From the NCBI RefSeq assembly GCF_025420485.1, contig NZ_JAOEFD010000001.1:248001-312000 (forward strand): DNA of 64,000 nt, written 5' to 3'. Source of the DNA: Nesterenkonia marinintestina (GTDB taxonomy: Bacteria > Actinomycetota > Actinomycetes > Actinomycetales > Micrococcaceae). The translations under genes and the position numbers were made by a program. Positions 52,568-58,907 of the stretch are shown one piece after another. The notes under the pieces are model-generated. The model was given only the letters and a program-made list of their open reading frames with translations, had not been told where the DNA came from and did no database searches. Position 1 is the stretch's first letter. Every line of letters begins with the position of its first letter.

Positions 52568-53059
52568 TCACCGCAGGCGGGCGATCTCCGCGGCCGCGGC
52601 CACCGCCGCATGGGCGGCCTCGAAGCCCTTGTCCTCCCGGGACCCCTCCAGGCCGGCACGGTCGAGGGCCTGCTGCTCGTCGTCGCAGGTCAGCACCCCG
52701 AATCCGACGGGCACCCCTGTGGTGACGGCCACCTGGGTGAGTCCCTCCGCAGCCGCTCGGCAGACATAGTCGAAGTGGGGCGTGCCCCCGCGGACGACGA
52801 CGCCGAGTGCGACGACGACGTCGTGCTCCTCGGCTGCGTGCCGCGCCAGCACGGGCAGCTCGAAGCTGCCGGGGGCGTCGATCAGGGTGAGCTCTGCGAC
52901 GCCGACCTGGTCGAGCAGGCGGCGGGCTCCGGCGAGCAGCCCCTCGCGGACGCGGGCGTGCCAGCGTCCGGCGACCACTGCCACCCGCAGGCCTCGGGCG
53001 GCCTCGCGCAGCGCCCGGAGCTCTTCGTCGTCGATCGTCGGGGTTCCGGTGGCGCTCAT
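52568..53059 (-). CDS. ribH: 6,7-dimethyl-8-ribityllumazine synthase
   Basis: RibH condenses the RibB and RibD-pathway products to lumazine, the substrate of riboflavin synthase. The 163-residue protein has [32 protein letters not shown] and [19 protein letters not shown] (catalytic histidine region). [19 protein letters not shown] also matches. The ATG overlaps the stop of the preceding fusion gene (ATGA), so all enzymes acting after lumazine formation are translationally linked. It is the last rib gene before his. Confidence 0.96.
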
Positions 53060-55131
53060 CGTGTCTCTCCCTGTTCGTCCTCGGTGGGCAGGTGGTCGGT
53101 GCACAGATCGTCGGTGGGCAGGTGGTCCGTGGGCAGGTCCTCGGGCGGGACGTCGTCGACGGGGACTGTTCGGACGGAGGAGTCCTCGTCGAGGTCCCCC
53201 CGGTGGTCCAACATATGACGCATCCGGTCCCGCTTGGTGCGCAGATAGCGTCGGTTCTCCTCGTGGACGACGCCGTCGGAGGGCACCTGGGTGACGTCGA
53301 GTCCGGCCCGGCGCAGCGCCTCGACCTTCTCCGGGTTGTTCGTCAGAAGTCGGAGCCTGGTGATGCCCCGGCGACGCAGCACGGCCGCGGCCCCGGCGTA
53401 GTCGCGCAGCTCAGCGGCGAGCCCGAGCATCTCGTTGGCCTCGACGGTGTCGGCGCCGTCCTCCTGGAGCCTGTAGGCACGCAGCTTGTTCACCAGCCCG
53501 ATCCCCCGGCCTTCATGTCCGCGCAGGTAGAGCAGGTGGCCGCCGTCGCGGTGCAGGGTCTGCAGCGCCGAGTCGAGCTGTGTGCCGCAGTCGCAGCGGT
53601 GCGAGCCCAGGACGTCGCCGGTCAGGCACTCCGAGTGCAGTCGGACCAGGGGTCCGTCGCGTCGGGCCTCGGCCTGCACACCGGGAGCGGTCAGCAGCAG
53701 GTGCTCGTGCCCGGTGGTGTGCTCGGTCCAGGCCTGGGCCACGAACGTCCCGTAGTCGGTGGGCAGGGTCACCTCCGGTCCCCCGGTGACCGGAGGGGCC
53801 TCGGATGCGCCGTCGGACACGCCGCTCGGCTCCGCACCTCCGCGGTGGGCGATGAGGTCCGCGATGGAGATGAGCGCGAGTCCGTGGGTGTCGGCGAACC
53901 TGCGCAGGGCCGGCAGGCGCATCATGGCGCCGTCGTCGTGGACCAGTTCTGCGATCACCCCGACCTCGGGGGCTCCGGCCAGTCGGCACAGGTCGATCGC
54001 GGCCTCGGTGTGGCCCGGGCGGCCCAGCACGCCGTGCGGGTCGGCGATGAGCGGGAGCATGTGGCCGGGGCGGGTGAGGTCCTCGGCCGCGGCGGCGTCG
54101 GAGGCGATCAGGCGGGCTGTGGTCGCCCGGTCCGCCGCGCTGATGCCGGTGCTCACTCCGGCGGCGGCGTCGCAGGTCACCGTGTAGGCGGTGCCCTTCG
54201 GATCCTGGTTCCGGACCACCATCGGTGGCAGGTCGAGATGTGCGGCCCGCGACGGCGTCATCGGCACGCAGACCACGCCGGAGGTGTGACGCACGGTGAA
54301 CCCCATGAGCTCCTCGGTGGCCGAGGAGGCGGGGAAGACGAGGTCTCCCTCGTTCTCGCGGTCGGCGTCGTCGACCACCACCACGGGGCGCCCCGCGGTC
54401 AGCTGGGCGACGGCGTCGGCGATCGGATCCAGCGTCGGCTCGGGTGCCGGGTCCAGCATCGGATCCGACGGGCCGGTGTCACCTGCGGTCTCGGTGACGG
54501 GGGCGGCTGCGGCTCCGACCCTCTCCTCGGCCTCGACCATCCGACGGGCGTACTTGGCGAGGATGTCATACTCCACGTTCACCTCGTCGCCGAGTCCGAG
54601 CCCGCCCAGGGTGGTCTCCCGCAGCGTGGTGGGGATGAGCCCGACCTCGAACCACGGGGTGCCGTCCACGCCCACGGCCGTCACGGTCAGGGACACCCCG
54701 TCGACGGCCACCGAGCCCTTCTCGACCACGGGAGGAAGCGGGGTCCCGTCCTCTCCGGAGAGGGCGAACCGATGACGTCCCTCGGCGGTGTCACGGTCGA
54801 CGAGCCGGGCGCGACGATCGACGTGGCCCTGGACGATGTGACCGTCCAGCCGCGCCCCGGCGGGGAGGCACCGCTCCAGGTTGACGCGGTGCCCCGGGGC
54901 CAGACCGCCCATCGTGGTGCGCCGGAGGGTCTCGTCGATGAGGTCCACCGCGATCTCGTCGCCGTCGATCTCCGTGGCCGAGACGCACACCCCGTTCACG
55001 GCGACGGATCCGCCCGGGGTGAGGCCGTCGGTGTGGCCGGGGGCGGCGAACCGCAGACGGACGACGCCGCGTGCGGGGTCCTCGCTGCGCTCGAGCACGG
55101 TCCCGAGGCCGGTGACGATTCCTGTGAACAT
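53056..55131 (-). CDS. Trifunctional riboflavin synthase / DHBP synthase / GTP cyclohydrolase II
   Basis: One 691-residue frame contains three complete enzymes. Residues 1-205 are riboflavin synthase with two lumazine-binding repeats ([41 protein letters not shown]). Residues about 235-430 are DHBP synthase RibB (DRENE at 257-261; [34 protein letters not shown]). Residues about 452-640 are GTP cyclohydrolase II RibA, with zinc ligands Cys502, Cys513 and Cys515 in [18 protein letters not shown]. RibBA fusion is common, but riboflavin synthase is normally a separate gene. The linker (206-236) is Ala/Pro/Asp-rich, and the last 35 residues are an acidic repeat. All active-site motifs are intact, so each activity is expected. 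It lies between ribD (4 nt) and ribH (overlap). Confidence 0.93.
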
Positions 55132-55135
55132 GGGG

Positions 55136-56296
55136 TCAGTCGCTCCTGTCGGTCTGGTCGCAGGGTGTCGACGGTGACTCGGGCGTCGGCGCCAGGTGGG
55201 TGCAGACGTCCTGGTCGAGCAGCCGCACCGGGCCGGATTCCGCCGGGTCCAGGCGGAACCGCGGCGCATCGTCCAGGGTGCCGACGCCGAGGTCCCCGAC
55301 GCTGGAGGGTCCGGCCCCCAGCAGCAGGGGAGCCTGGTAGACGAAGACCTCGTCGACGAGGTCGGCCGCGAAGAAGGACCCCATCACCCGGGCGCCGCCC
55401 TCGACGAGGAGATGGCGGACCGGTCGGCCCCGGTGATCGGTCTCGGCGAGCATCCGAAGAGCCTCGGAGGGATCGCGGGTGGCCAGATGGCGCCACCCCT
55501 CCCCCTCGGGCCGATCCTGACGCAGGCGCGCGGCGGCCGGAACCCCGCGCAGCCCCATCACGCACCGCAGGGGCTGCCTGTCGCTGGGCCGGCCGTCCGG
55601 CCCGCGGGCGGTCAGCCGGGGGTCGTCGACGCGGACGGTCTCGGTGCCCACGAGTATCGCGTCGATGCGTTCCCGGATCATGTGGGTGTGGCGACGCGAG
55701 GCCGGTGAGGTGATCCACATGCTGGTCCCGTCGGCGGCGGCGATCCGTCCGTCGAGGGTCTGCGCCAGGTGCACGGTCACGAAGGGACGGTCCTCGTGCT
55801 GGGCCCGGCGCCACCGATGGTTCAGATCTCGGCATCGGTCCTCGAGGACACCGGAGTCGACTCCGACGCCGGCCTCGGCGAGGAGCCGGCCTCCTCCCCC
55901 GGCCCGCCGGGTCGGATCGGTGTCGCCGTAGACGACGCGCCCGACCCCCGCCTCAAGGATCGCCTCGGTGCACGGGGGCTGCCGTCCGTGGTGCCGGCAG
56001 GGCTCCAGGGTGGAGTAGAGCACCGCGTCGGCGAGGTCCGCCTCGGCGAGGTCGGTCCCTGCGTGCTCGCCCGCAGCCTGCGACGCGGCGAAGGTCTCCA
56101 GGGCCTGCCGCTCAGCATGCAGGCTGCCGGCCCCTCGGTGGTGCCCGACCGCCAGCACGCGGTCACCGAGCGCCAGCACGGCGCCCACCAGCGGATTCGA
56201 CCCGCGGTGCCCAGCCGCGGCGGCCTCCAGCGCCGCCTCCATGTGGGTCTCGTCCGCCCGGATGAGACCGGAACGGCTGTGACGGTCCGCCGTCAT
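55136..56296 (-). CDS. ribD: Riboflavin biosynthesis deaminase/reductase
   Basis: RibD deaminates and then reduces the pyrimidine produced by GTP cyclohydrolase II. The 386-residue protein has the N-terminal zinc deaminase domain (HAERQAL; LEPCRHHGRQPPCTEAIL) and a C-terminal NADPH reductase domain. The reductase domain includes RPFVTVHLAQTLDGRIAAADG and LLVEGGARVMGSFF. The ATG overlaps the stop of the transporter gene upstream (ATGA). It is 4 nt from the fusion gene, so the rib genes form a tightly coupled operon. Confidence 0.96.
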   Translation of the reverse strand: MTADRHSRSGLIRADETHMEAALEAAAAGHRGSNPLVGAVLALGDRVLAVGHHRGAGSLHAERQALETFAASQAAGEHAGTDLAEADLADAVLYSTLEPCRHHGRQPPCTEAILEAGVGRVVYGDTDPTRRAGGGGRLLAEAGVGVDSGVLEDRCRDLNHRWRRAQHEDRPFVTVHLAQTLDGRIAAADGTSMWITSPASRRHTHMIRERIDAILVGTETVRVDDPRLTARGPDGRPSDRQPLRCVMGLRGVPAAARLRQDRPEGEGWRHLATRDPSEALRMLAETDHRGRPVRHLLVEGGARVMGSFFAADLVDEVFVYQAPLLLGAGPSSVGDLGVGTLDDAPRFRLDPAESGPVRLLDQDVCTHLAPTPESPSTPCDQTDRSD

Positions 56297-57398: not shown

Positions 57399-57472
57399 AG
57401 CGGATGACGAGATTCGAACTCGCGACCCTCACCATGGCAAGGTGATGCTCTAGCCAGCTGAGCTACATCCGC
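57399..57472 (-). tRNA. tRNA-Gly (GCC anticodon), copy 1
   Basis: The 74-nt tRNA has acceptor GCGGATG/CATCCGC, a loop carrying GCC and the T-loop GTTCGAATC. It is identical to the copy at 57773-57846. It is the last gene of the Gly-Cys-Val-Gly cluster in transcription order. Confidence 0.95.
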
Positions 57473-57504
57473 ATCGGAACGGCCCGTCACGGACCTCTTC
57501 CGAG

Positions 57505-57576
57505 TGCGCGATACTGGGATCGAACCAGTGACCTCTTCCGTGTCAGGGAAGCGCGCTACCGCTGCGCCAATCGCGC
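57505..57576 (-). tRNA. tRNA-Val (GAC anticodon)
   Basis: The 72-nt tRNA has acceptor GCGCGAT/ATCGCGC, an anticodon loop CTGACAC carrying GAC and the T-loop GTTCGATCC. It is third in the cluster. Confidence 0.95.
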
Positions 57577-57619
57577 CTATTCTGCTGTCCGTCACGGGCG
57601 GGCCCGCTCCGGTCCTGCG

Positions 57620-57690
57620 AGGTGGGGACGGGAATCGAACCCGCGTATACGGCTTTGCAGGCCGCTGCCTCGCCACTCGGCCACCCCACC
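57620..57690 (-). tRNA. tRNA-Cys (GCA anticodon)
   Basis: The 71-nt tRNA has acceptor GGTGGGG/CCCCACC, an anticodon loop CTGCAAA carrying GCA and the T-loop GTTCGATTC. It is second in the cluster. Confidence 0.95.
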
Positions 57691-57772
57691 GTATCCGTGA
57701 TCGGAGGATTCCCGCCGCTCGAGCAGGTCCCCCACACAACGGGGACCGCCGAGGTGAGGCGGTCCCGATGCG

Positions 57773-57846
57773 AGCGGATGACGAGATTCGAACTCGCGAC
57801 CCTCACCATGGCAAGGTGATGCTCTAGCCAGCTGAGCTACATCCGC
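57773..57846 (-). tRNA. tRNA-Gly (GCC anticodon), copy 2
   Basis: The 74-nt tRNA is identical in sequence to the gene at 57399-57472, including a few flanking bases. It is first in transcription order. The identical pair brackets tRNA-Cys and tRNA-Val. Confidence 0.95.
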
Positions 57847-58010: not shown

Positions 58011-58907
58011 ATGACACAGCCCTCCCTCGCCCACGCCACCGCCTACGGGCGCATGTACTCCCGCTCGACGGCCTCCGCCCCCGAGGTCCCCTCGATCACC
58101 ACGATCATCGGCCAGGAGGCCAAGGACCTGACCGGGTGGGCGGGGCACCTGGCGGCCTCGGAGCTCGCCGCCGACCGGCGGCTCTCGGGTGCGGTGGGCT
58201 CGGCCTCCCGGCTGCGGTCGCTGGCCCGTGACGCCTCCGATGCGGCCGCGCGCTTCCGGGACGCGGCGGCGGCGCGGGGCGACAGGGTCCACCACTATGC
58301 CGAGCAGGTCGCCCGGCGTGCCCTCGGCGAGCCGCACGAGGCCGAGTCGTCGCGGGCGCTGCTGGCCGAGCGTGGTGAGGATCGGTACGCGGACCGCTTC
58401 GACGAGTGGTGGGAGCTCTACGACGTGCGACCTCTGGCCGCCGAGGTCACGGTGTGGAACCACACCCTCGGATACGCGGGGACCCTGGACCTCGTCGCCG
58501 AGATCGGCGGACGCCGCTGCCTGATCGACTTCAAGACCAAGGGCCTGGACCGCTCGGGGCGCGCCAAGGCGCTGAGCGACTCGGTCGTCATGCAGCTGGT
58601 GGCGGGGCTGAAGGCCGAAGAGTCGCTGCACGACGCCGAGGCGGGCGTCTGGGAGCCGTGGGAGCACGGGCGGGACGCCGTCCTGCTGGCGGTGGCGATA
58701 TCCGAGGCCGAGACGGTGCCGGTCCAGGCCGTCCCCGAGGTGCTGCCCCGTCACTGGCACAAGTTCTGGGCGCTGCGGCAGGTCTGGGAGCACACCCGCG
58801 GTGCGGCCGAGGCGGGCCGGGCACTTCGTCCGATTCCGCCTCCTCCGGTCCCCAGACCGTCTGCGACCGAGACGGCGGGGTCGGATGCGGCCCCCGCCGC
58901 TGGTTAG
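58011..58907 (+). CDS. PD-(D/E)XK nuclease-like protein
   Basis: This 298-residue protein has the core of a RecB/Cas4-like PD-(D/E)XK nuclease: VTVWNHTLGYAGTLDLVAEIGGRRCLIDFKTKG. The GTLD aspartate, the D-F-K of DFKTK and a following Q in VVMQLVAGL fit the catalytic motifs. The N-terminal part resembles the exonuclease-like helical region with HHYAEQVAR, and the C-terminus is Pro/Ser-rich. Its cellular role is unknown; there is no helicase or Cas partner nearby. The stop codon TAG overlaps the -10 box of def, so the genes are physically locked together. Confidence 0.75.
   Translation: MTQPSLAHATAYGRMYSRSTASAPEVPSITTIIGQEAKDLTGWAGHLAASELAADRRLSGAVGSASRLRSLARDASDAAARFRDAAAARGDRVHHYAEQVARRALGEPHEAESSRALLAERGEDRYADRFDEWWELYDVRPLAAEVTVWNHTLGYAGTLDLVAEIGGRRCLIDFKTKGLDRSGRAKALSDSVVMQLVAGLKAEESLHDAEAGVWEPWEHGRDAVLLAVAISEAETVPVQAVPEVLPRHWHKFWALRQVWEHTRGAAEAGRALRPIPPPPVPRPSATETAGSDAAPAAG

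Follow-up and report, generated by a model that had tools for sequence, protein, structure and literature searches.

Riboflavin synthase (RibE), DHBP synthase (RibB) and GTP cyclohydrolase II (RibA), which usually come from two genes, are joined in a single reading frame, ribEBA, in the 64,000-nucleotide stretch of Nesterenkonia marinintestina DNA analysed here (the window), and this RibE-RibB-RibA fusion is real and genus-wide in the sampled Nesterenkonia. The enzymes themselves are well known; their arrangement is new. The account that very probably holds as a whole is that of one 73-kDa chain of single origin, created by a change of frame, in which independent domains would be held in a 1:1:1 ratio with no direct channelling of intermediates.

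The ribEBA frame (53056..55131, minus strand) runs from an ATG at 55131, with AGGAG upstream, to a TGA at 53058-53056, and its 691 codons contain no internal stop, giving a protein of 691 aa with a computed mass of 73.2 kDa. A single uninterrupted RibE, RibB and RibA frame of this length had been proposed in the first-pass annotation of the window, and is borne out by the open frame and by the domains identified with Pfam and NCBIfam. The N-terminal RibE domain (residues 1-205; 54517..55131, minus strand), delimited using Pfam, PDB relatives and AlphaFold2, contains two Lum_binding repeats, the stronger one at residues 101-189. It is followed by an Ala/Pro/Thr-rich linker (residues 206-233; 54433..54516, minus strand), defined from the alignment and AlphaFold2 and predicted to be disordered. 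The RibB domain (residues 234-430; 53842..54432, minus strand), supported by Pfam, NCBIfam and an alignment to structure 4i14, includes the DHBP_synthase match (PF00926, residues 239-428, E 6.6e-78), and the RibA domain (residues 453-644; 53200..53775, minus strand), supported by Pfam, NCBIfam and alignment, includes the GTP_cyclohydro2 match (PF00925, residues 453-615, E 6.5e-55) and cysteines 502, 513 and 515. The chain ends in an acidic C-terminal tail (residues 645-691; 53056..53199, minus strand), with a net charge of about -14 over residues 646-691, and no tail of this form appears in the 24 other distinct fusions aligned. Part of the tail is coded by a 15-base tandem repeat of 3.9 copies at 53081-53138.

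The 20 other Nesterenkonia fusions in the alignment of 21 are 65-70% identical to the ribEBA of the window, and C502, C513 and C515, together with many motif columns, are invariant across all 21, in agreement with the earlier view that the motifs, including these RibA cysteines, are intact. All three domains have intact motifs, and both RibBA activities would be expected. DHBP_synthase followed by GTP_cyclohydro2 in a single chain is the domain composition of RibBA, and ribEBA scores above the cut-offs of the RibB and RibA models TIGR00506 and TIGR00505 (NCBIfam), as well as those of the RibE models TIGR00187 (168.7 bits, cut-off 156.6) and NF006767 (191.2 bits, cut-off 155). Against the curated RibBA equivalog NF006803, whose cut-off is 569 bits, the whole protein falls short at 521.7 bits, and ribEBA is therefore filed as a RibBA-containing fusion and not as a plain RibBA. 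It resembles RibBA (NF006803 and 4i14, the latter presumably the M. tuberculosis enzyme) in domain order and zinc cysteines, with residues 4-413 of 4i14 aligning to residues 234-649 of ribEBA (E 3.8e-114), but differs from it in the N-terminal riboflavin synthase as well as in the equivalog score. It also resembles the RibE alpha chain (TIGR00187, NF006767) in its two lumazine-binding repeats and MFTGI start, and the riboflavin synthases 1i8d, 1kzl and 4e0f align to residues 1 to about 200, whereas here RibE is not free-standing, being followed by the linker and RibBA.

The gene order on the minus strand of the window is an FMN riboswitch (RF00050, 57159..57301, 90.5 bits), a PnuC/RibM-like transporter gene (PF04973, 56293..57063), the deaminase/reductase gene ribD (55136..56266; Pfam and NCBIfam, start provisional), ribEBA, the lumazine synthase gene ribH (52568..53059; Pfam), whose start overlaps the ribEBA stop (ATGA) and whose product resembles mycobacterial lumazine synthase, and a hisE-like gene (PF01503). 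This is the layout of an FMN-riboswitch rib operon, with the RFN element upstream and ribD, ribE, ribBA and ribH in order, and the same-strand arrangement places the riboflavin biosynthesis genes together behind one riboswitch. The transporter is a probable riboflavin importer, from its family and its position in the operon; according to PMC4418817, riboflavin import is mediated by RibM in two Actinobacteria. Four tRNA genes (57399-57846, minus strand) lie just upstream of the riboswitch, and beyond this cluster is a 298-codon frame on the plus strand (58011-58907) without a Pfam match.

Matches to RibE, RibB and RibA lie in a common frame in 29/30 Nesterenkonia genomes, in which RibE is fused to RibBA instead of being free-standing; this count includes one genome (G043) in which the RibA part runs off the contig end. 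The sole unfused genome (G017, locus L151) is 62% complete and has frame-broken ribD, ribE, ribA and ribH, and because all four genes are broken this exception points to poor assembly. RibB was matched once in all 30 genomes, RibA once in 29/30 (with three pieces in G017), and exactly two Lum_binding repeats were present in each of the 30. No second copy of RibE, RibB or RibA was found in the 30 genomes examined, so a working pathway would require ribEBA to provide all three activities. Among the best 80 loci of at least 562 relatives, the nine from named Nesterenkonia are all fused (9/9) and none of the other 71 scored as fused, these including three loci (L070, L079 and L081) that show no RibE and a few non-actinobacterial loci, likewise without a fusion.

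The distribution beyond Nesterenkonia was surveyed with the alignment of 21 fusions in 245 genomes of the family, 297 of the order and 296 of the phylum, these sets overlapping, and candidate loci were tested for a shared stop-free frame; frequencies outside the genus are lower bounds, among the matches listed. The count of this domain architecture suggested by the first-pass annotation gives, besides the 29/30 Nesterenkonia genomes, at least two further genomes of the family with RibE, RibB and RibA in one frame, G121 (genus g17) and G051 (g23). In g17, which is perhaps Rothia, 15/17 genomes were matched and 15/15 of these join RibE to RibB, the other two having no match among those listed; RibA is fused as well in G121 and is separate in 14 genomes (16 loci). 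Two g17 genomes, G237 (L132/L133) and G156 (L135/L136), each carry two complete and unlike rib operons, with RibE joined to RibB. Genus g20, probably Kocuria, includes RibE+RibB with a separate RibA in three genomes (G263, G102 and G158, the RibE of G158 being divergent), RibE separate from RibBA in four genomes, including G172, and all three separate in two. The RibE-RibB fusions of g17 and g20 are like ribEBA in having the same junction and a variable linker, but unlike it in having RibA in a separate frame.

RibE, RibB and RibA are all separate in nine further genera represented by one genome each (g19, g21, g22, g24, g33, g38, g42, g43 and g45), and at their loci (L185, L190-L192, L197, L200 and L202-L204) the usual RibBA is split into RibB and RibA frames, with operon order kept. 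The order survey involved fetching 19 loci, comprising 17 long frames and two spanning matches, of which 18 were unfused, so that very long frames over RibBA were rejected as fusions at these loci. The remaining one, G500 (L163; f6 g6, of the same order and another family), has RibD, RibE and RibB in one 879-codon frame, and the sole RibA of this genome lies on a different contig. In the phylum survey, long or spanning matches were also rejected as fusions, RibE being separate in 20/20 fetched loci. An apparent Micrococcus fusion (L134, in G213) was rejected as well, its ribE/ribBA junction consisting of 100 N, and was left out of the final change counts. All four sampled genomes of g26 (G054, G083, G106 and G128) gave no match to the fusion profile among the matches listed, and this genus may have lost riboflavin synthesis.

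The operons of unfused relatives suggest how such a fusion could form. A four-base overlap (ATGA or GTGA) between the ribE stop and a candidate RibBA start is present in 20/26 of these relatives, and the ribE and RibBA frames differ in 25/26; with stop and start overlapping in different frames, a slight shift of frame close to the ribE stop would suffice to merge the two genes. In a tree of concatenated RibD, RibE, RibB, RibA and RibH pieces (91 rows), all 15 Nesterenkonia rows group in a single clade with a support of 100. The RibE/RibB junction requires 6 changes on this tree when the N-containing Micrococcus case is left out, and 5 when two long branches are left out too; these counts take gains and losses together. 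A clade uniting Nesterenkonia with g17 was rejected (p-AU 0.0057), as was one made up of all 38 rows scored as fused at that stage (p-AU 5e-05, with the N case still included), both groups having been picked after the tree was seen. Related bacteria have thus joined or split the same neighbouring rib genes several times, and horizontal transfer is possible because the tree rests on operon genes. For the ancestral order of events, we infer that the fusion would have had a single origin, predating the divergence of the sampled Nesterenkonia, in adjacent operon genes with the stop/start overlap of most unfused relatives examined, that a small frame change would have removed the ribE stop, and that the fusion would then have become fixed as the sole copy of the three activities.

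A single ribosome start at 55131 would yield the 73-kDa chain, in which about 28 residues of putatively disordered linker would tether RibE to a RibBA that is ordinary in other respects. The AlphaFold2 model of the single chain, which is of moderate confidence (mean pLDDT 71.4, pTM 0.37), has the RibE C-terminal helix (residues 190-207) formed, and its pLDDT falls below 50 at residues 207-230 and 645-691 and in shorter stretches such as the catalytic-domain loop 505-508. Across 47 Nesterenkonia loci, some from the same genome, the linker measures 69 to 198 bases between matched domains. The domains would be expected to fold and work independently; within the fusion RibE would probably be trimeric and RibBA dimeric, with a linker long enough for both. 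That the fused parts form separate oligomers elsewhere had been pointed out from the start, and agrees with PMC8414670, which describes B. subtilis RibE as a homotrimer and takes RibAB to be dimeric. The heavy riboflavin synthase of B. subtilis, as described there, is like ribEBA in associating RibE with a second pathway enzyme, but unlike it in that the association is non-covalent, a RibE trimer lying inside a RibH capsid (PMC8414670). The RibH of the window aligns without gaps to the lumazine synthases 1w19 and 4j07; relative to 1rvv, which forms capsids, one of its loops has two extra residues and two other places each lack two. It is probably of the pentamer type, and a RibH capsid enclosing ribEBA would not be expected because 1w19 and 4j07 are mycobacterial and pentameric.

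A false joining of two genes through an error of sequencing or assembly deserves consideration because the apparent fusion at L134 did turn out to be a 100-N run, but this Micrococcus locus is the only one with N inside among the 70 scored as RibE+RibB. The open frame is kept, without N, in 25 distinct Nesterenkonia fusions (window included), and the frameshift or stop in independent linker sequences that the first-pass annotation had named as grounds for refuting the fusion was not found in any of them; error was rejected, as conservation across the genus rules it out and makes this explanation virtually inconceivable. A second ribosome start in the linker, which would give the cell free RibBA alongside the fused enzyme, is improbable. 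GTG, TTG or ATG is present in the linker of most fusions, GTG codons occurring in most linkers and some having SD-like 4-mers, and residue 228 of L112, for example, has AGGAG upstream. SD-like 4-mers are nevertheless no more frequent at linker start codons (8/62) than at those in the rest of the gene (124/854), no start codon with an SD-like site is present in the linker of the window itself, and no conserved internal start was found in the linker over the 25 distinct fusions. The only start codon kept in 25/25 of them is an ATG inside the RibE C-terminal helix, without an SD-like site; an SD-like 4-mer is present at the ribE start in 22/25. The sequence thus favours translation of ribEBA as one chain in the cell, and since no internal start is visible, the RibE:RibB:RibA ratio would be 1:1:1, which upholds the previously proposed fixed stoichiometry on condition that no internal start is used. 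Minor internal initiation or proteolytic cleavage may occur.

The pathway itself bears on what the fusion could do. RibD takes up the pyrimidine precursor made by RibA, RibH takes up the four-carbon unit made by RibB, and RibE turns the RibH product into riboflavin. Direct channelling is unlikely because no fused domain hands its product to another, and with RibH absent from the fusion, channelling between domains was rejected as the main explanation, contrary to what the first-pass annotation had suggested. The channelling partner of RibE in B. subtilis is the RibH capsid, according to PMC8414670. The fusion might instead be adaptive, either through the assembly of RibE trimers with RibBA dimers or by keeping RibE near RibB and RibA and coupling by-product and substrates via RibH. 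This is rather unlikely, even though the fusion is fixed across the sampled Nesterenkonia, the tree calls for no fewer than 5-6 changes in RibE/RibB joining, a clade of Nesterenkonia and g17 is rejected at the p-AU given above, and RibE and RibAB of B. subtilis are described as a trimer and taken as a dimer, respectively, in PMC8414670. Against it, the fused enzymes are not consecutive in the pathway, linker length is not conserved, and both junctions of the operon fuse and split, with seven changes each (N case included), as tightly packed genes would. A stronger form, in which trimer and dimer build a defined particle, at least a hexamer and maybe a closed cage or network, that organises the pathway round free RibH pentamers and was reached independently more than once in the family, is a long shot. 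The best reading is that of a functional, flexible fusion that would hold the enzymes at 1:1:1 and may bring no benefit beyond that.

The first-pass annotation had allowed that the same fusion might already be well documented across many actinobacteria; it proved to be genus-wide with few loci beyond, and no description of a RibE-RibBA fusion was found in the open-licence full-text literature, an absence that is weak evidence. The available portions of PMC4418817, PMC3766115, PMC13028884, PMC8414670, PMC8222686 and PMC13373138 make no mention of the fusion, and the word "fused" is absent from PMC8222686 and PMC13373138, which deal with Nesterenkonia among other isolates. The interest of ribEBA lies in its domain architecture, which brings together three well-studied enzymes, was not found described and is fixed in the sampled Nesterenkonia. 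Because one family contains four arrangements of the RibE/RibB and RibB/RibA borders, the rib operon is a compact natural experiment on neutral versus selected fusion, and ribEBA offers a natural trimer-dimer fusion for structural work. It also calls for caution in annotation, as the riboflavin synthase would go unnoticed under a plain RibBA label. At L134, automatic fusion searches would count two Micrococcus genes as fused across the run of N.
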